Shown here: positions 15,658 to 59,584 of the stretch, one piece after another | Numbering within the stretch: the first letter of the stretch is position 1 | Layout of the letters: each line of letters opens with the position of its first letter | Program-made: the position numbers and the translations under genes | Assembly: GCA_000787465.1 (NCBI GenBank) | Contig: JSYX01000023.1 | Location: 1 to 64,000 of the forward strand | Direction of reading: 5' to 3' | DNA from: Thermomucor indicae-seudaticae | Lineage: Eukaryota; Mucoromycota; Mucoromycetes; Mucorales; Lichtheimiaceae | DNA length: 64,000 nt | Notes under the pieces: model-generated | What the model was told of the DNA's origin: nothing | The model's input: the letters and a program-made list of their open reading frames with translations, nothing else | Database searches by the model: none

Positions 15658-16395
15658 TTAAACAGCACCAAAGAAATAAAAATATAAACCATATAATAAA
15701 CTAATAGACTGAGAGATAATGATACATAAAATATAAAAAGTATTAGACATAACTAAATATTTATCTTTAATATAAAATAAATATTGAATTTGTTTAGGAA
15801 ATTTATCTTTAAATTTATTTCCGAAATTAGAAATAAAAAAATTTAATCCTAAACAAATTCCAGAAACCAATCCAATAAATGCAAAACAAGCAACAGAAAA
15901 TCCTACATATTGTAAGATATTACTTGAAGATACATCAATTAATCCAGGTTCAAATACAGAATTAATAATAGATGGGCTTTCTTCTAAGTTTGCTGTTACA
16001 TTTAATGATAAATTAGATTCAGTTTGAATTGTACTAGATACTTCTTGAGGTGTATTTAATTCAGTTTGAATTGATTTATATTCAGAAGATACTTTAAGGT
16101 CCTCTTGAACTTTTAAAGTATCAATCCTATATTGATCAAATTTTGAGGGTAACCCTAATTTAAATTTATCCAATTCAATCTTATCGATCTCAATTTGTTG
16201 ATTTCGTTCCATCAATGTTTTATTATCTTCATGAATCATTTTATTTTGTTTTAAAGTTTGATGGTTACTATAAATAGTTGCTGCAGCAATAGCTAAACAG
16301 GCAATACCTGTTCCAGTTACAATTGCCGCAATAATTTTGTCTTTCCACATGATTAAATGATTATATGAATAATCATAATATTCATTTATAATCAT
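15658..16395 (-). CDS. membrane-protein family ORF B (245 aa, intact)
   Basis: Not a recognised gene. The likely start is ATG 16350 (MWKDKIIAAIVTG), because the 15 codons before it are copied nad1 leader; the longest frame starts at 16395. Architecture: N-terminal TM (IIAAIVTGTGIACLAIAAAT), charged coiled-coil-like region (HEDNKTLMERNQQIEIDKIE), Ser/Thr-rich middle, then FEPG followed by TM (FSVACFAFIGLVSGICLGLN), basic linker (GNKFKDKFPKQIQYLF) and a last TM. It is homologous to ORF C in the EPG, KDKxP and C-terminal helix. It sits between two nad1-leader copies on the nad1 strand, so it may be transcribed with nad1 signals. Function unknown. Confidence 0.8.
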   Translation of the reverse strand: MIINEYYDYSYNHLIMWKDKIIAAIVTGTGIACLAIAAATIYSNHQTLKQNKMIHEDNKTLMERNQQIEIDKIELDKFKLGLPSKFDQYRIDTLKVQEDLKVSSEYKSIQTELNTPQEVSSTIQTESNLSLNVTANLEESPSIINSVFEPGLIDVSSSNILQYVGFSVACFAFIGLVSGICLGLNFFISNFGNKFKDKFPKQIQYLFYIKDKYLVMSNTFYILCIIISQSISLLYGLYFYFFGAV

Positions 16396-20760: not shown

Positions 20761-21112
20761 AAATCTTTATATAATTAGATTATTTATTATAAATAACACA
20801 TTTTTAACCGTCCAGACCCGGAGGGGTATTGTACCTCGGGACAAGTTCTCGAAGGAAACTTGTTCTCGATTTATCTTGTTGGGGAGCAAGTCTATCAAGA
20901 CAAGTTTAATTTATTAATTTCGAATTCAATATTCATAATTACTTTAGTCTGCGGAGCTGATGCCTTTAAGGCTAAATAAAATTTATTAATAAATTTTATA
21001 TTTTAGGCAAATTCTATTTATTTAAAGCACCTTGTTAATACATTCCTTCTAGAATGTCCTAGGTTTATTTTATAAAAACAGGATTTTAATTTCTATACTC
21101 TTAGAAATTAAA
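20761..21112. other. spacer with hairpin-module repeat
   Basis: No gene. 20815-20905 carries GC and acttgttctcgatttatctt-type modules shared with 23612, 26039 and 55395. Confidence 0.4.
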
Positions 21113-21183
21113 AACTTACCCCGGGACTCGAACCCGGATTTGAGTATTAGAAGTACCCTGTTCTTCCTTTGAACTAAGTAAGT
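21113..21183 (-). tRNA. trnR: tRNA-Arg (TCT)
   Basis: Acceptor ACTTACT/GGTAAGT, anticodon stem GGGTA/TACTC, loop CTTCTAA, anticodon TCT, T-arm CCGGG-TTCGAGT-CCCGG. Confidence 0.94.
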
Positions 21184-21539
21184 TGCAGAATTATACTATT
21201 CCTTATACTTTAAAAAATAGGCAATTTCTAATTACTGTCAGAGTTCTACATAGTTAGGTATACAGGATATTATTTATCTTTATAACCTTAAAGTATTAAA
21301 GTTATTAAATTAATGTTTAAAGACCAAGTTGCTTTGCCCTCTGTGCTAAGCCTGAAGGATTAGGCTGGAACCTAAGAATTTATTTTTAATTTAATTTTTA
21401 AATTATTTATTTTATAATCTACACTAAGTAAGTATAAATCTAAGGGTAATAAATTCAAATTACTAAACTCACCTGTTTGAATTAATAAAATATTAATTTT
21501 AAGTGAATATCTATATAATTTACATAAATCACCATTATA
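21184..21539. other. spacer before the D5-type relic
   Basis: AT-rich. May include the eroded N-terminal part of the primase/helicase, but no clear protein similarity is legible here. Confidence 0.3.
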
Positions 21540-22889
21540 ATTATAATTATAATGGTGTATGGAATTTAATTGATGATAATGAAGCTGAACAAAAAGTATT
21601 TCTAATTTTAATGGATAAACCCGGAATTTCTGGCAGATTAACAAATACTTATGTTAAAAATATGAAGCATTAACTAAAATTAATGGTATTAAATTACAAC
21701 AATTAACTCATGCAAATAAACAAAAAGGTTTAATTCAATTTAAAATGGTGTATTAGATGTCAATACAAAAGAATTAATTCTATTTAATAATAATCATTAT
21801 TTTACATATCAATTATCTGTTGAATATAATCCAACAGCTAAAATGTCAAAAGAAATGAAATGATTGATTTTTTAATTAATCTCTTTAATAATAATTATTA
21901 TTCATTACTTATTTTAAGACTTTTTATTTATCTTGTTTTAAGAAGAGAAAATAAATATCAAATTGCAGTATATTTATGGGAACAAGCTAATAGTGAAAAA
22001 AGTATTATAGAATATATTTTAGCTGCATTAGTTGGTAACAAATATACTAAATATTGTTCTCTAAAAAAATTAAATTCAAAACATGAAACAAGTAAATTAA
22101 CAAATGCATGTTTAATTTAATTTTTAGATATTAAAAGTTATTCTGGTGATGCAACTAAATTAAAAATTTAATTTCTGGTGATTTAATAGAATATGAATAA
22201 AAATATAAAAGTTTATCATATTTTCAACCAGAAGCACTTGTTATGTTTACAAGTAATTTATTATGGTCACCAAAATATCCAACAAATGGATTACAAAGAA
22301 GAATCATTTATATTTCAATTGATAAAAAATTTAAATAAATTAATAGATATTTATTTAAATTTTATTTTATAACAGGTGAATCATATGGAATTTTAAAAAA
22401 ATTTTACCTAGATTAGTTAATTAGGCATTAGATGTAACAGAAGAAGATTTATCTGTGTTAAATAATAATACTGTTTTTATTAATCAAAGAACAGCTCCAA
22501 ATATGTGTTATAAAGTTAATCCATTATTAGATTGGATTGTAGCATATGTAGTATTTAAAAAAGGAAATCAAATTGGTGTAGGTTTAAAATTTAGTGATCC
22601 TGATAAATATTTATGGCTAAATTATTTAAGATATTATCGTAACCATAATTTTTCACCATTAAGTTTTAATGATTTTAGTAATGCATTAGTACAACAATTA
22701 AATTTATTTAGTGATAATGCTGGAATAGCTCATGTAACTAAAAAAAGAACAATGGCAGGAGTTGTATTAGAAAATATTGATTTATTAAAAACTTCAAATA
22801 TGAAAGTGGGTGATGCTATGATTGATGAATTAGATTTAACAATTAATAATTATAGATATTATGAAATTTTTGGTAAATTTGTAGAATAA
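21540..22889 (+). pseudogene. D5-type primase / superfamily 3 helicase relic
   Basis: Several frames on the plus strand align in order with a D5-like primase-helicase. Domain-entry block: GLIQFKNGVLDVNTKELILF then EYNPTAKMSKEM (about 21725-21860). Walker A region WEQANSEKSIIEYILAALVG (21978-22035), with Gly-to-Glu changes at G-x-x-N-x-G-K-S. Then DIKSYSGD and ISGDLIEYE around the Walker B/motif B' region (22125-22195), ALVMFTSN (sensor/motif C, 22230) and GLQRRIIYISIDKKF (arginine finger, 22288). The C-terminal part (22455-22889, open for 144 codons) has NPLLDWIVAYVVF, a YLWLNYLRYYRNHNFSPLS winged-helix signature and NDFSNALVQQLN. Such proteins replicate viruses, phages and plasmids. Stops, frameshifts and Walker A damage show it is dead. 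Confidence 0.8.
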
Positions 22890-23202
22890 ATTTTTATAAA
22901 CCATCGGTTTATATAGTATAGGTTTTAAAATTAATATATTCAATCTACTATTACTACATATAAAGAACCTTAAATTTTGAGAGAGGGTAAATTTAAATAT
23001 CAAATTTAAATAATAAATTAGTAGTTATAATAATTTATTATGGTTAAAGCTTAGATTTATAAATTTTATTTGTTAAAATCTGTCAAGAATATTTCGGACC
23101 CGAAGGAACCTAAATATAATCATTTTATTATATCCTAGGCCCGAAGAACCTGAATCAGCCAGCTTTATAAAGCTGGCTGATTCTATAAGTAACACTTTTT
23201 AA
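22890..23202. other. spacer after the D5-type relic
   Basis: AT-rich with one hairpin (agccagctttataaagctgg, 23157-23176). No gene recognised. Confidence 0.35.
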
Positions 23203-23286
23203 ACGATTGTGATGAAATTGGCAAACATGGTTGATTTAGGTTCAGCTGGTAGTAATACCTTGCAGGTTCAAGTCCTGCCAATCGTA
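23203..23286 (+). tRNA. trnL: tRNA-Leu (TAG)
   Basis: Acceptor ACGATTG/CAATCGT, anticodon stem GTTGA/TCAGC, loop TTTAGGT, anticodon TAG, long variable arm as expected for Leu, T-loop TTCAAGT. Confidence 0.94.
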
Positions 23287-26977: not shown

Positions 26978-27261
26978 TTAAGTTGTTAAATGTGTAATGG
27001 TTTTATTCAGTGTATTAATCATGATTTTAGCGATTGCCTTATTTTTCCTTCAAATTCCTACGATTGGCTTTAATTTAAACTAATGTAAGCTAATTCGAGT
27101 CATTACAATTAATAATTGTAAGAAAACAAATAAGGAAGAAGTACCAATTTTAAGTAATTTAATAATTGCTACTATTACTCTTCTACTTATTTTCTTTATT
27201 TTAAATCCAACACCATTATTAAATAGTGTTCACTACTCACTTTAAATCTATCCTATTGGTA
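26978..27261 (+). pseudogene. nad2 5' and 3' fragments fused as leader of ORF C
   Basis: 26978-27081 is a mutated copy of the nad2 leader and first about 25 codons (atggttttattcagtgtatt against atggttttattcggtgtatt). 27140-27261 copies the nad2 3' end through ctattggta, the bases just before the nad3 ATG. The roughly 1.2 kb of nad2 between them is missing. The join leads directly into ORF C. Confidence 0.85.
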
Positions 27262-27996
27262 ATGTTTAATTTTTTAAAAAATATGAATAAGGAAACGATA
27301 CTTTTAATTACTGGAGTAATTTTTTCTGTGACATTTATTTACAATAATGAAAGAACAATTAAAGCAAATAAAGAAATTGCTGAATTAAATACTCAAGATA
27401 AAAATAATCAAATGCTATTATTACAAAATATTTCTAATCAATTAGAGAAATTAGAAAAAATTTTAGAAAACAATTCTCAAGCAATTGATAATAAAGAAAT
27501 TTTAGAACTACAAAATATAATGAAAAATTCTCAGTTTAAAGAACATTTAATGTCAGCTTATAGAAATGCTGTAGAGAATTCAAAAAGATTGGAAGATAAT
27601 ATTAATATTTCAACTTCTAGTTCATCGAATCTTCTTGATTCTAATACAAATTTATTAAATTCAGTTGATAATACTGATTTATCAAAAGCTAGTTTTATCG
27701 ATATTGATTCAATGTTATCAGTTCTTTCTGAACCTGGTTTTATGATGTTAAGTGTTTCTATTTTTTTATTTAGTGTTGTAATAGCATCAGCTACTTTAGG
27801 ATTAATTTCTAATTATTATTTTGATAAATACGGAGAACATTATAAAGATAAAGTACCAAACTGGTTATTACCTTATATTAATGCTCGTAAGACATTAAAT
27901 AATTATACTAATAAGTATTTTATTTTTGTTATTTTATTCTGTCAATTAATGATTATGCTACTCTGTATTTACTTAAAATTCAGAGGAATTGCTTAA
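27262..27996 (+). CDS. membrane-protein family ORF C (244 aa, intact)
   Basis: Not a recognised gene. The ATG at 27262 (MFNFLKNMNKETILL) occupies the place of the nad3 start codon behind a copied nad2 tail; the frame remains open upstream to 27226 only because it reads through that tail. Architecture: N-terminal TM (ILLITGVIFSVTFIY), coiled-coil-like region (LLLQNISNQLEKLEKILENN), Ser-rich middle, SEPG, TM (MLSVSIFLFSVVIASATLG), basic linker YGEHYKDKVPNW, last TM. Homologous to ORF B. A copy of the last atp9 exon follows at 28023. Function unknown. Confidence 0.8.
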   Translation: MFNFLKNMNKETILLITGVIFSVTFIYNNERTIKANKEIAELNTQDKNNQMLLLQNISNQLEKLEKILENNSQAIDNKEILELQNIMKNSQFKEHLMSAYRNAVENSKRLEDNINISTSSSSNLLDSNTNLLNSVDNTDLSKASFIDIDSMLSVLSEPGFMMLSVSIFLFSVVIASATLGLISNYYFDKYGEHYKDKVPNWLLPYINARKTLNNYTNKYFIFVILFCQLMIMLLCIYLKFRGIA

Positions 27997-33750: not shown

Positions 33751-34722
33751 ATGACAATAGTAAATTCTAAGTTATATTATTCCCCCTATTTAAGAAGTTA
33801 CAATTTTTTTATTATGGTTATCTTATTCTTTTCAATTTATTTAGGTTGGGTTTTAGCTAGTATTACAATTGAACTTGTAAATTTTATCTTAGCTAAATTT
33901 GTAAATCCAATTCCATGGCAATTAAAAGTATTATCAATTTTTATTGGTGGTCTGTTAGTTATTATTGTAATTAGCATGATTCCATCTGATTTTACTAATC
34001 ATACTATAGATGTATATTGTTCTGGTAATGAGGAAAGTCATAATCCTTACTTAATTACTGTATCTAATGAGCATTTAGGTGTAAACTTTAGTTTTGATCC
34101 TAGAAAGATTACGGATGTTTTATTACTTGGTACTGTAGGAAAAATAACTTTAAGTACAATTAAAGGTGCTCCTGCATCTGTGAAAGCATCTGTTGCAGCT
34201 TCTACTGTTTTATCAATGGGAACGGTAGCTGTTATGTTAAAAGCATTTAATAACGTTAGTAATCAAAGTAAAGTTTACGAAATTTCTAAAAATAATCAAA
34301 AAGTCCAATTAGAAATTTCTCTTAATATTGAAAAAGGTGGAAGTTTTAAAGATGTAGAAGAAGTAGCTAAAGTCCCCCCTCGGGGGGTCTTAGCTCCCTT
34401 CGGGGCTAAATATATTAGCATTAATTCACCTTTTGAATATTTATATTTTGTTGAAACTCTAAAAGTAATTATTTTATGTATGGAAATTCTTACTATTTTA
34501 TCAATTATTGGTTTTATCTTGTTTGCTTTATTTATGTCTTTTACATATTCAGGTATTAATAATTTTGATAAGACAAATAATATTCTATTAAAAAAATTAA
34601 TTAATTTAACACAAAAATCTGGTAAAGTTTATGCATTAATTTGGGGAACATTAACCCTATTTAATTTAAGTTGGATTTTATATTTTACAATTAAATTTAT
34701 AGAATTATTAAATAATCTATAG
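33751..34722 (+). CDS. membrane-protein family ORF D (323 aa, intact)
   Basis: Not a recognised gene. TM segments: VILFFSIYLGWVLASITIEL, VLSIFIGGLLVIIVISMIP, an Ala-rich helix SVKASVAASTVLSMGTVAV, a pair VIILCMEILTILSIIGFILF and ALIWGTLTLFNLSWILYF separated by a basic linker. Motifs SINSPFEY before the TM pair and IPSDFTNHTIDVYCSGNEES after TM2. Residues from 210 (VPPRGVLAPFGA) are encoded by a GC element inserted in frame; copy F lacks them. Intact except for that insert. Followed by an atp9 exon 3 fragment at 34757-34788. Function unknown. Confidence 0.8.
   Translation: MTIVNSKLYYSPYLRSYNFFIMVILFFSIYLGWVLASITIELVNFILAKFVNPIPWQLKVLSIFIGGLLVIIVISMIPSDFTNHTIDVYCSGNEESHNPYLITVSNEHLGVNFSFDPRKITDVLLLGTVGKITLSTIKGAPASVKASVAASTVLSMGTVAVMLKAFNNVSNQSKVYEISKNNQKVQLEISLNIEKGGSFKDVEEVAKVPPRGVLAPFGAKYISINSPFEYLYFVETLKVIILCMEILTILSIIGFILFALFMSFTYSGINNFDKTNNILLKKLINLTQKSGKVYALIWGTLTLFNLSWILYFTIKFIELLNNL
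34372..34408. repeat. GC element inserted in frame within ORF D
   Basis: ccccctcggggggtcttagc and ctcccttcggggc hairpins; about 36 bp, absent from the homologous position in copy F at 40970. Confidence 0.65.
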
Positions 34723-38685: not shown

Positions 38686-54023
<15,338 letters not shown>

Positions 54024-57200: not shown

Positions 57201-59584
57201 CTCTTTATTTTGCTCTAAGAGAAAGAAAAATGATCCTTCTACGTCTGTATATCCAGTAATAAACTATGGATTTATATTTTATAATTTATTAGAAGTAGAT
57301 AAAGGGTTGATTTTTATAGGTTTAACTTGGTGAAAGATATTTTTAGAATTAATTTTTACATTATTAGATGAAATTAGCTTATTGAATGTTTGATTAATAA
57401 ATAAGAAATTATTCTTTAAATATGTAATTGTAAAATTATCGTTTACCATCGTGGCTGCGTGAATCAGCGCACTTACAGGTGTTGGACCTTCCCATTAATA
57501 TTCACTATGAAACAGTGAAATTGGACTTTATCTTCATCATTTTATGATGTTTAGCATATAGTCTCTGAGGTCTTCCGGGCATCAGGCACCCGGCCCGCCA
57601 GCGGGCCGGGTGCCTGATGTTTAATACCTGCTGATAGTCTAAAATAATCTATTATTACTTGACCCTTTGGCTATGCCCTTGTGGCGTGGTTCCTACGGGC
57701 TATTAAAGTAAGATTACATTTAAAGACTTCCCAGCATATAGCTAAATTTTATTGCGACAGAAGTTTATTGTCATCGCATCTGGTAACCAAGCATGTAAAC
57801 CTAGTTGAGCAGATTTAGCCATGGCTCCAATTAGTAATAGAATAGAAATAATAGTAATTAATTCTTCGTTAATATATGGGGCTAATGAGAAAACAGTAGT
57901 AAAATCTAAGTTACCAAAAGTCCAGAAAATTGTCCATAAACCAATACTGAATCCCCAATCACCAATTCTATTAGTTACTAAAGCTTTAATTGCAGCTTTG
58001 TTAGCTTGTAGTCTAGTAAACCAGAAGTTAATTAATAGGTAAGATGAAATACCTACACCTTCCCACAGATGTTATTTATAAATGTGAAGAAATTATAATT
58101 TATACAGCATACTTTGATGCATATAAGGTTAAACAAGGTTATATAATTTATTTTTAACATCTTGTTTTACTTGAATATATAAAAAATATTGAGATTTAAC
58201 CTTTTCTTCTAATCTAGGCCCAGGGGGGCCTGACCCCTTGGGCTAAGCCCGCGGGGCTAGAATGCTTTTTATTCTATTTATTCTTAAAGAGAATTCAGGA
58301 CCTGGACCTCCGGTCCGGTTTTTATCTTGATATACTTGCTCTGTCAATACAAGTCCCCCTGGTCCCAAAATTTGTCCAAAATATCTTTTTGAAGTAATTC
58401 TACTTCAAATTTAGTATAAGATCTTGTATGAATAATAGTTTGTCCATAATAAGATTTACCTCTATCGTCCATAATTAAATAAGCCAAACTTCTTGCTATT
58501 AATAAATCATCAATATTATTAGGAATAATATTTTTTTTCCGTTAGGATAGAATAATTCATAATAATAATTTAAACAAGGTAAAGATAAAGTTAAAATTTA
58601 ATACTCTTATATACTTTACCAGTTTTAATATCTGGTTTTTTATTAGTAATTTTAGGACTAGAAGCAGTAAGAGGTTCAAATACTTCATATAAATGAAGTA
58701 AATAATCTTTATGTAAACTATTAGATTGATCAAATACTAATTTAGTATTATGACTAGGTTTTGGTCTTCTTAAATAGGCATCTCCTAATAAAACTTAAAT
58801 TAAAATTTGCTTTTGAATATCTGATAATTGTAAATTTTCTTTATACCGTTTAGAATATCTAATTTTTTTATCAGAATTAGATACAATAGGAATCATATAA
58901 GATGTTTTAATTAAGAAATCAGACATATTATTAAAGTTAATAATTTTTCACATTTATAAATAATCGGACTTAATCATTATTCATCAATACAATTTGAAGA
59001 ATATCTCACATAAAGTCTCTGAGGATTAACTCTAATATTTCCTGCTGATAACTCATTTAATCTCTCTGAAATTATTACCATTTAGGTATTCAGAGTTTTA
59101 GAGTGTTCCAGCATATAGCGAGATTACACCATATATCTTACGATTATAGGCAGGCCGGGATAATGTGACCAATAAACATTAGAATATAGTTATCTCCTGT
59201 TACAAGCATTAACATAAAGAATGTGAACATAGATAAATATGAGAAGAATCTTTGATTGTGAGGATCTTCACTCATATAACCTACAGAGTAAATATGTACT
59301 AGTGCAGATACAATAAGAACTGGTAGTAACATTGATACTGTTAAACTATCGTAGATAAATCCCCATGATACTAATAAGAATTCAGAATCAATCCAGCTCA
59401 TTAATTTAATATAAACAGGTGATTGACATAATCCTACTTCGTAGAAAGCTACTAAAGCTAGTAATGCTGTTAGAACTAAAGAACTACAAGTAATTAAATG
59501 ACTACCTGTTCTACCAATTTTTCTTCCTAAAAATCCTGCTACTGTAGCTGATAATAGAGGAAGTGTAAGAATAGCTAAATACAT
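54290..59584 (-). CDS. n​ad5: NADH dehydrogenase subunit 5 (5 exons)
   Basis: Large antiporter-like subunit of complex I. Exons 59584-59168, 58065-57773, 57492-57445, 55943-55748, 55309-54290; sum 1974 nt, 657 aa. Exon 1 ends NYILMFIG, exon 2 starts [12 protein letters not shown] and ends GLHAWLPDA(M), exon 3 (48 nt) codes [16 protein letters not shown], exon 4 [18 protein letters not shown] to FLVCG, exon 5 [20 protein letters not shown] to NNTNSNKN. Start ATG overlaps the TAA of nad4L (TAATG). Identification secure. Confidence 0.97.
55310..55747 (-). mobile_element. group I intron nad5-i4 with hairpin-module array
   Basis: 438 nt. Core at 55730-55610 (tattagcattaaatgatg, cctgctaatcgtcc, tagtctctgagg). 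55395-55512 is a hairpin-module array of the 23612 type. No endonuclease. Confidence 0.86.
55395..55512. repeat. hairpin-module array in nad5-i4
   Basis: ttcccgtcggggcaagttcc, cgaagggaactag, ttgtattgtcaaaacaag, tgctctgtcaagacaag. Shared with spacers at 23612 and 26039. Confidence 0.7.
55944..57444 (-). mobile_element. group I intron nad5-i3
   Basis: 1501 nt. Core at 56240-56080 (tccagcatatag, cctgctgatatttc, aagtctctgagg), close to the 3' end. The upstream kilobase contains a decayed LAGLIDADG gene. Confidence 0.86.
56294..57420 (-). pseudogene. LAGLIDADG endonuclease of nad5-i3, decayed
   Basis: Pieces in several frames: [20 protein letters not shown], a motif [16 protein letters not shown] (about 57265-57215), later [20 protein letters not shown] and [20 protein letters not shown] near the C-terminus (ends 56294). 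Multiple stops; a GC cluster at 56837-56872 lies in it. Confidence 0.65.
57493..57772 (-). mobile_element. group I intron nad5-i2 (no ORF)
   Basis: 280 nt. Core at 57745-57555 (cccagcatatag, cctgctgatag, tagtctctgagg) with a long GC hairpin between R and Q. Confidence 0.87.
57580..57619. repeat. perfect 19-bp GC hairpin in nad5-i2
   Basis: catcaggcacccggcccgc pairs with gcgggccgggtgcctgatg around the loop CA. Sits in the loop between core elements R and Q. Confidence 0.85.
58066..59167 (-). mobile_element. group I intron nad5-i1
   Basis: 1102 nt. Core at 59120-58990 (ttccagcatatag, cctgctgataac, aagtctctgagg). Contains a decayed LAGLIDADG_2-type gene. Confidence 0.87.
58370..58930 (-). pseudogene. 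LAGLIDADG_2-type endonuclease of nad5-i1, decayed
   Basis: [16 protein letters not shown], stop, [19 protein letters not shown] (first motif, about 58800), [19 protein letters not shown], shift, [18 protein letters not shown], shift, [17 protein letters not shown] (second domain), [11 protein letters not shown]. Same family as the intact nad4L-i1 enzyme. At least three lesions. GC cluster next to it at 58217-58262. Confidence 0.72.

Follow-up and report, generated by a model that had tools for sequence, protein, structure and literature searches.

A probable P4-family (D5-type) replication pseudogene in the mitochondrial DNA of the fungus Thermomucor indicae-seudaticae

Between two transfer RNA (tRNA) genes, the mitochondrial DNA (mtDNA) of Thermomucor indicae-seudaticae carries a broken gene that is very probably a pseudogene of a P4-family (D5-type) replication protein, the relic of a replicon once resident in mitochondria. 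The window analysed comprises bases 1-64000 of contig C23 (JSYX01000023.1; 92,356 bp) in a 24.77-Mb assembly, and the relic, at 21540-22889 on the plus strand between trnR and trnL, is a single gene broken into four colinear open pieces. Together these hold the end of a D5_N domain, an SF3 helicase and a C-terminal winged-helix, origin-binding-like domain. A previous reading made from the sequence alone had proposed a D5-type primase/SF3 helicase relic in mtDNA between these tRNA genes, and a D5-type SF3 helicase relic is what Pfam, PHROGs, whole-assembly searches and structural tests agree upon. The contig is mitochondrial, as seven open reading frames (ORFs) tested match Proton_antipo_M (two, one of which also matches NADH5_C), Oxidored_q3 (one), NADHdh (two) and COX1 (two) in Pfam, and ARAGORN places 18 tRNA genes in the window. 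The assembly is that of a fungus, with 46 matches to Fungal_trans as against none in 14 control genomes. The open pieces of the locus, searched separately rather than joined, are C, D, F and H, with A, B and G considered doubtful; the principal features are as follows.

21112-21184, minus strand: trnR(tct), the left flank (ARAGORN, Rfam tRNA).
21503-21670, plus strand: open piece A, frame 2, a possible D5_N start (YNGVW...), unsupported by score (2.9 bits, E 3.3, with a 17-sequence cyanobacterial-type profile; z at most 2.0 in 21 pairwise tests).
21744-21872, plus strand: open piece C, frame 0, the end of the D5_N domain with the NGVLDV block (Pfam D5_N 1.8e-6).
21842-22117, plus strand: open piece D, frame 2, linker and P-loop region of the SF3 helicase (phrog_1156 0.0012; phrog_1829 0.0021; 13-primase profile 4.5e-6).
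22156-22338, plus strand: stretch, with stops inside, holding ISGD, the sensor FTSN and the arginine finger QRRI of the SF3 helicase (phrog_864 and phrog_1829 whole-assembly matches).
22201-22335, plus strand: open piece F, frame 1, within the preceding stretch (phrog_864 0.0021; 13-primase profile 2.3e-4; 129-sequence profile 1.5e-4).
22425-22889, plus strand: open piece H, frame 0, 154 codons and a stop, the C-terminal winged-helix/origin-binding-like domain (129-sequence profile 6.3e-9).
23203-23286, plus strand: trnL(tag), the right flank (ARAGORN, Rfam tRNA).

Membership of the D5 family is most directly evident in piece C, which scores 28.8 bits against Pfam D5_N, above the cut-off of 22.4, and covers positions 100-140 of the 145 in that domain. 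Amongst the PHROG DNA primases the same piece matches phrog_864 at 7.5e-7 and phrog_1829 at 7.9e-4, and tblastn with it returns 227 phage records at E<=10, the best being the primase of Synechococcus phage S-EIVl (3e-4) and the weakest including tail proteins. The PHROG matches of piece H are weak (phrog_7601 0.023; phrog_864 0.028), and pieces A, B and G match no PHROG of the D5 primase family. TIGR01613, the P4-family model of NCBIfam, gives 0.024 for C and 0.0071 for D, the latter at 15.2 bits, far under the cut-off of 108.7. Profile positions follow the order of the DNA, both for phrog_864 (C 295-336, F 447-491, H 566-601) and for phrog_1829 (C 435-472, D 472-553, F 587-631). All motifs named in the sequence-only reading were found on the plus strand in the order it gave: NGVLDV at 21744 (frame 0), ANSEKS within 21842-22117 (frame 2), ISGD at 22171-22182 (frame 1, read by eye), FTSN and QRRI within 22201-22335 (frame 1) and NYLRYYRNHNFSPLS within 22425-22886 (frame 0, piece H). 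The sensor asparagine, the arginine pair and the order and spacing of the SF3 motifs are retained, but the Walker A glycines are not. From 21744 onwards the interval previously delimited (21540-22889) holds; the stretch 21503-21744, mostly inside it, is unsupported (best 2.9 bits, E 3.3). Neither pairwise tests nor profiles built for this work support the first two thirds of the D5_N domain, and pieces A and B, tried as D5_N in the same tests, found no support either. Other matches under cut-off or without an assigned function were TRPM2-like (0.046, the sole Pfam match of D) and DUF6363 (0.025, A) in Pfam, and phrog_21741 (0.02, A). A perfect 28-base palindrome of two complementary 14-base arms with no gap lies at 21530-21557, at the left border previously given for the relic.

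Searches of the whole assembly, in which profile searching scores the best candidates only, lead to the same place. The sole match to Pfam D5_N at E<=0.001 in 24.77 Mb is this locus, and phrog_864 and phrog_1829 have two matches each at E<=10, all of them here, including one to phrog_864 positions 432-492 (2.3e-6, three stops inside) and one to phrog_1829 at 22159-22401 (2.2e-5, two stops inside). No second copy was found in the assembly. Two further profiles were run against all 2583 stop-to-stop frames of at least 20 amino acids (aa) in the 92-kb contig. With a profile of 13 phage primases, chosen through their match to piece C, the top three frames are C (6.8e-10), D (4.5e-6) and F (2.3e-4), the next scoring 2.8; the score of C is inflated because the references were picked via C, whereas those of D and F are not, and piece H is not reported among the 2583 frames. 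A 129-sequence profile was made from 120 relatives, those listed out of 586, and nine others; the relatives that carry an organism name are cyanobacteria, most having none. Its top four frames are C (5.3e-9), H (6.3e-9), F (1.5e-4) and D (0.069), and the next is 1.3. Profile positions run in DNA order with both, and the spacings measured from where C starts, 155.3 and 255.0 codons, agree within two codons with the 155 and 257 of the profile. Such preserved spacing implies small insertions and deletions (indels), with no large insertion or loss.

The C-terminal piece H contains the 144-codon open stretch previously described (22455-22889) and extends to 154 codons from stop to stop, a length that no dinucleotide shuffle of the relic attained (1000 shuffles of 1350 bases, three forward frames each; longest 133). 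Its GC content by codon position is 0.377/0.266/0.058. When relatives are aligned, the AlphaFold model of its core has a predicted local distance difference test (pLDDT) score of mostly about 90, and the best match of this model in the Protein Data Bank (PDB) is 1ka8, the origin-binding domain of phage P4, a winged-helix fold. The predicted model therefore bears out the earlier winged-helix reading, and piece H is, on this model, a winged-helix domain with the fold of the P4 origin-binding domain; the comparison with 1ka8 depends on the alignment of relatives, and DNA binding is putative. Both its length, beyond all the shuffles, and its strong codon-position signal would also suit an alternative in which piece H is not dead, having been kept as a stand-alone origin-binding-like protein that might, for example, block the origin of a related invading element. 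The predicted fold, a complete domain unit, is in keeping with this, as is the condition of the preceding 680 bases: reading through 21744-22424 by eye requires three or more changes of frame and encounters three or more stops, whilst piece H has no stop. Recent decay, however, accounts equally for an open piece H, whose first ATG lies 26 codons in, and selection on it has no second species' copy for comparison. Special conservation of residues in H is not borne out, as the per-piece count of conserved columns kept (13/34) is no better than that of the broken D (13/35). Retention of piece H as a working protein is accordingly considered unlikely.

By sequence comparison, the kin of the relic are P4-family phage and plasmid primases, and its C-terminal domain most closely resembles the counterparts in cyanobacterial plasmids and cyanophages. 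With piece H, 56 of 146 reference proteins are matched at E<1e-3, all within the cyanobacterial-type set (56/129), whereas the 17 other phage/plasmid D5 proteins and the 146 reversed sequences give no match at that level; the best matches are 1.7e-7 (P0112), 0.54 amongst the other D5 proteins and 2.5 amongst the reversed sequences. At equal depth (17 sequences each, leaving out of the cyanobacterial side three references to which piece C had led directly), piece H scores 35.3 bits with the cyanobacterial-type profile and 6.1 bits with that of other D5 proteins. When 21 references were compared pairwise, the highest z-score of C, D, F and H alike went to a protein of cyanobacterial plasmid or cyanophage type. 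The cyanobacterial-type kinship of the C-terminal domain is firm at the level of these comparisons. Piece H is 19-27% identical to 26 cyanobacterial-type P4-family proteins; eight invariant columns in that comparison carry no weight, since they include the relic by construction. The P4-family primase-helicases of Chondrocystis sp. NIES-4102 plasmid3, Rippkaea orientalis pP880101 and cyanophage S-EIVl have a D5_N domain, an SF3 helicase and a C-terminal domain in an order and spacing like those of the relic. Unlike these proteins, the relic lies in fungal mtDNA, is AT-rich and broken, and has neither the Walker A glycines nor an N-terminal primase region that could be detected. Searches of plasmid and phage records (E<=1) and of IMG/VR gave no close relative of piece H, and amongst 5.8 billion proteins its sole match was the window's own 128-aa protein P0001 (two member sequences, three contigs). 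Piece D had no match in phages or IMG/VR, the only match of piece F in phages was a terminase (E 9), solved structures searched by sequence with D and H gave no relative, and IMG/VR searched with P0112 and with the Chondrocystis primase gave none.

D5-like proteins had also been associated with large DNA viruses, and descent from a giant-virus D5 gene, instead of a phage or plasmid replicon, would be an alternative source. Giant-virus primases do appear as structural matches, at E 0.021 to 0.18, but behind phage primases and the P4 domain; Pox_D5 is absent among the Pfam results, to which filters apply, and piece H matches the cyanobacterial-type set by sequence in a panel that holds no giant-virus proteins. 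A viral origin of this kind is therefore quite improbable, and of the proposed kinship the D5 family stands, with P4-type phage/plasmid replicons in the place of large DNA viruses.

As it stands, no active ATPase would be expected from the relic because the Walker A glycines are replaced, two glycines conserved in both of the profiles built here being read as E in the ANSEKS of piece D. Third-position GC in the relic is 18/323 (5.6%; C cut where D takes over), lower than the 172/1294 (13.3%) of six native gene pieces, five named by Pfam and one (59147-59584) by eye (p 4.5e-5), and than the 132/1042 of four unnamed ORFs (p 2.2e-4); GC in the flanking DNA is 23-24%. Since long neutral decay would raise so low a value, the loss appears to be recent, and decay looks to have proceeded by small indels and stops. 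The gene had its own codon usage, differing from that of the native mtDNA genes, which suggests that it resided on a separate AT-rich replicon, or in a different organelle, before it was inserted here. Fresh codon usage and a retained net length would likewise be expected if the gene were intact in the organism and its breaks only apparent, arising from assembly error, RNA editing or programmed frameshifts. This is very improbable, as several frame changes and stops would have to be bridged, the other genes in the window, unlike the relic, are open frames, and indel errors would not replace the Walker A glycines.

The remaining alternative, chance likeness in AT-rich DNA or a better fit to another P-loop family, has in its favour only short single pieces and some marginal library scores, and can be dismissed on the PHROG, Pfam, assembly-wide and own-profile searches, given the top three and top four ranks among 2583 frames, the agreement of profile and DNA order, the one D5_N place in 24.77 Mb, the kept spacing, and significant D5/SF3 matches with no better rival family in PHROG, Pfam and NCBIfam scans.

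Several observations nevertheless weigh against a relic of a mitochondrial replicon. No intact or further relic copy of the gene was found, and piece H gave nothing at E<=10 among 706 longer candidates. Modelled without relatives, piece H is poor (pLDDT 35.5). Columns at least 90% conserved in relatives are kept at 9/16 in C, 13/35 in D, 9/17 in F and 13/34 in H. With equal-depth profiles the non-cyanobacterial score is the higher for C (38.2 versus 29.0 bits) and D (21.4 versus 6.6 bits), and as these pieces prefer the other profile, the evidence for cyanobacterial kinship comes from the C-terminal domain and the pairwise tests. On contig C23 neither an integrase nor a family B or phage-type polymerase was found. 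A search of 21180-23210 for clear ends, duplicated target sites and terminal repeats found nothing but low-complexity repeats of AT and a single short palindrome. Of the earlier proposal that a D5-type replicon once integrated here, the D5-type gene is supported, and integration of a replicon we infer from this one gene, no ends, integrase or polymerase of that replicon having been found on the contig.

'Primase/helicase' is likewise apt as the name of the family but not as a description of the content. Neither Prim-Pol nor DUF3854 has a match at E<=1 in the assembly; of 14 controls, only one gave a DUF3854 match, and that fell below the cut-off. Within the contig the N-terminal part of the 129-sequence profile finds no matching frame, Toprim-type primase domains not having been searched alone. 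tRNA genes occupy the upstream DNA where an N-terminal primase domain would be. In alignment, satellite-phage D5 proteins are likewise without a primase domain in the same protein, so its absence is not decisive for D5/P4 membership. The relic was either truncated on insertion or derives from a D5 protein lacking an N-terminal primase, like those of satellite phages. Elsewhere in the assembly, a tyrosine integrase-like match occurs at C409:12448-12951 (5.3e-6, open frame of 293 codons), with a further match on C489, and a family B DNA polymerase has one sub-threshold match on C54.

If the relic reading is correct, the intact protein would have bound an origin through its C-terminal domain and formed an SF3 helicase ring that opened the DNA of a small foreign replicon. 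This replicon may have been a plasmid or satellite-like element living in these mitochondria or those of a predecessor. The replicon, or the gene alone, would then have recombined into mtDNA between two tRNA genes, where the inserted gene, no longer needed, could have undergone recent decay by small indels and stops. The relic suggests that foreign replicating DNA once entered these mitochondria.

The known plasmids of fungal mitochondria rely for their replication on DNA polymerases, RNA polymerases or reverse transcriptases of their own. Linear ones, which carry a family B DNA polymerase and a phage-type RNA polymerase, integrate into fungal mtDNA and decay, and to our knowledge their replication is protein-primed and proceeds without a D5 helicase. 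The locus described here differs in that contig C23 has no match to DNA_pol_B_2 or RNA_pol. A separate contig, C24 (15,754 bp, GC 28%), looks mitochondrial and has an ORF resembling atp6 by eye; at C24:12838-13688 two pieces of it match a phage-type RNA polymerase (1.0e-18 and 2.0e-16), one of them with a stop, and this broken polymerase is probably the relic of a linear mitochondrial plasmid.

Comparable genes are known from other organelles, and the family is a familiar one in an unexpected place, with kin in print for fern and algal organelles. A TIGR01613 phage/plasmid primase ORF is described in the chloroplast genome of the green alga Prasiolopsis (PMC4524492) and a phage/plasmid primase ORF in that of Ulva (PMC10151680). 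Like the relic, these are phage/plasmid primase genes in organelle DNA, but they lie in chloroplasts, and the Prasiolopsis ORF has 653 codons. In the fern Mankyua (PMC6220310), the proteins listed as best hits of plastome ORF531 come from Pleurocapsa sp. PCC 7319 and Chondrocystis sp. NIES-4102; the ORF also matches TrlaMp60 of the liverwort Treubia, and the mitogenome of the fern Helminthostachys contains sequences resembling Mankyua ORFs. Remains of MORFFO are described for the Haplopteris mitogenome (PMC10027690). Mankyua ORF531 and MORFFO, which unlike the relic belong to plant organelles, are linked to it via shared relatives only, the Pleurocapsa PCC 7319 and Chondrocystis NIES-4102 proteins being among its relatives. 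TrlaMp60 is presumably a mitochondrial ORF. The main text of PMC13000998, on MORFFO genes, contains neither 'fung' nor 'primase'. No report of such a gene in fungal mtDNA was found in the literature searched, which mostly excludes subscription journals; this negative is weak evidence of novelty.

Other ORFs of the contig include two that are membrane-protein-like, at 15661-16395 (minus strand, 245 aa) and 27226-27993 (plus strand, 256 aa), which are ~27% identical (1.9e-10) and have no Pfam match. A 323-aa ORF without a Pfam match (33751-34719, plus strand) has a second copy in pieces at 40631-41578 (minus strand), 45-63% identical, and an identical 18-residue fragment at C23:70623-70733 (minus strand), this family being a repeated, decaying element. 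The 218-aa ORF at 48387-49040 (minus strand) has no convincing Pfam match and no relative on the contig.

A wider and more tentative proposal, for now rather doubtful, is that fungal mitochondria, too, are or were home to a family of P4/D5-type replicons that are related to cyanobacterial plasmids and hop between organelles. ORFs in the plastids and mitochondria of ferns, in a liverwort and in the chloroplasts of algae would be earlier glimpses of this family, and the gene described here would be its first fossil from a fungus; its route might have been through fungi in contact with plants, algae or cyanobacteria. If this is true, fungal mitochondria would have hosted a further kind of guest, a P4-type replicon led by a helicase, and fungal mtDNA would be tied to the unexplained mobile ORFs of plant organelles, whose origin would become testable. 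The profile of the C-terminal domain makes intact copies searchable in fungal mtDNA and plasmid reads.
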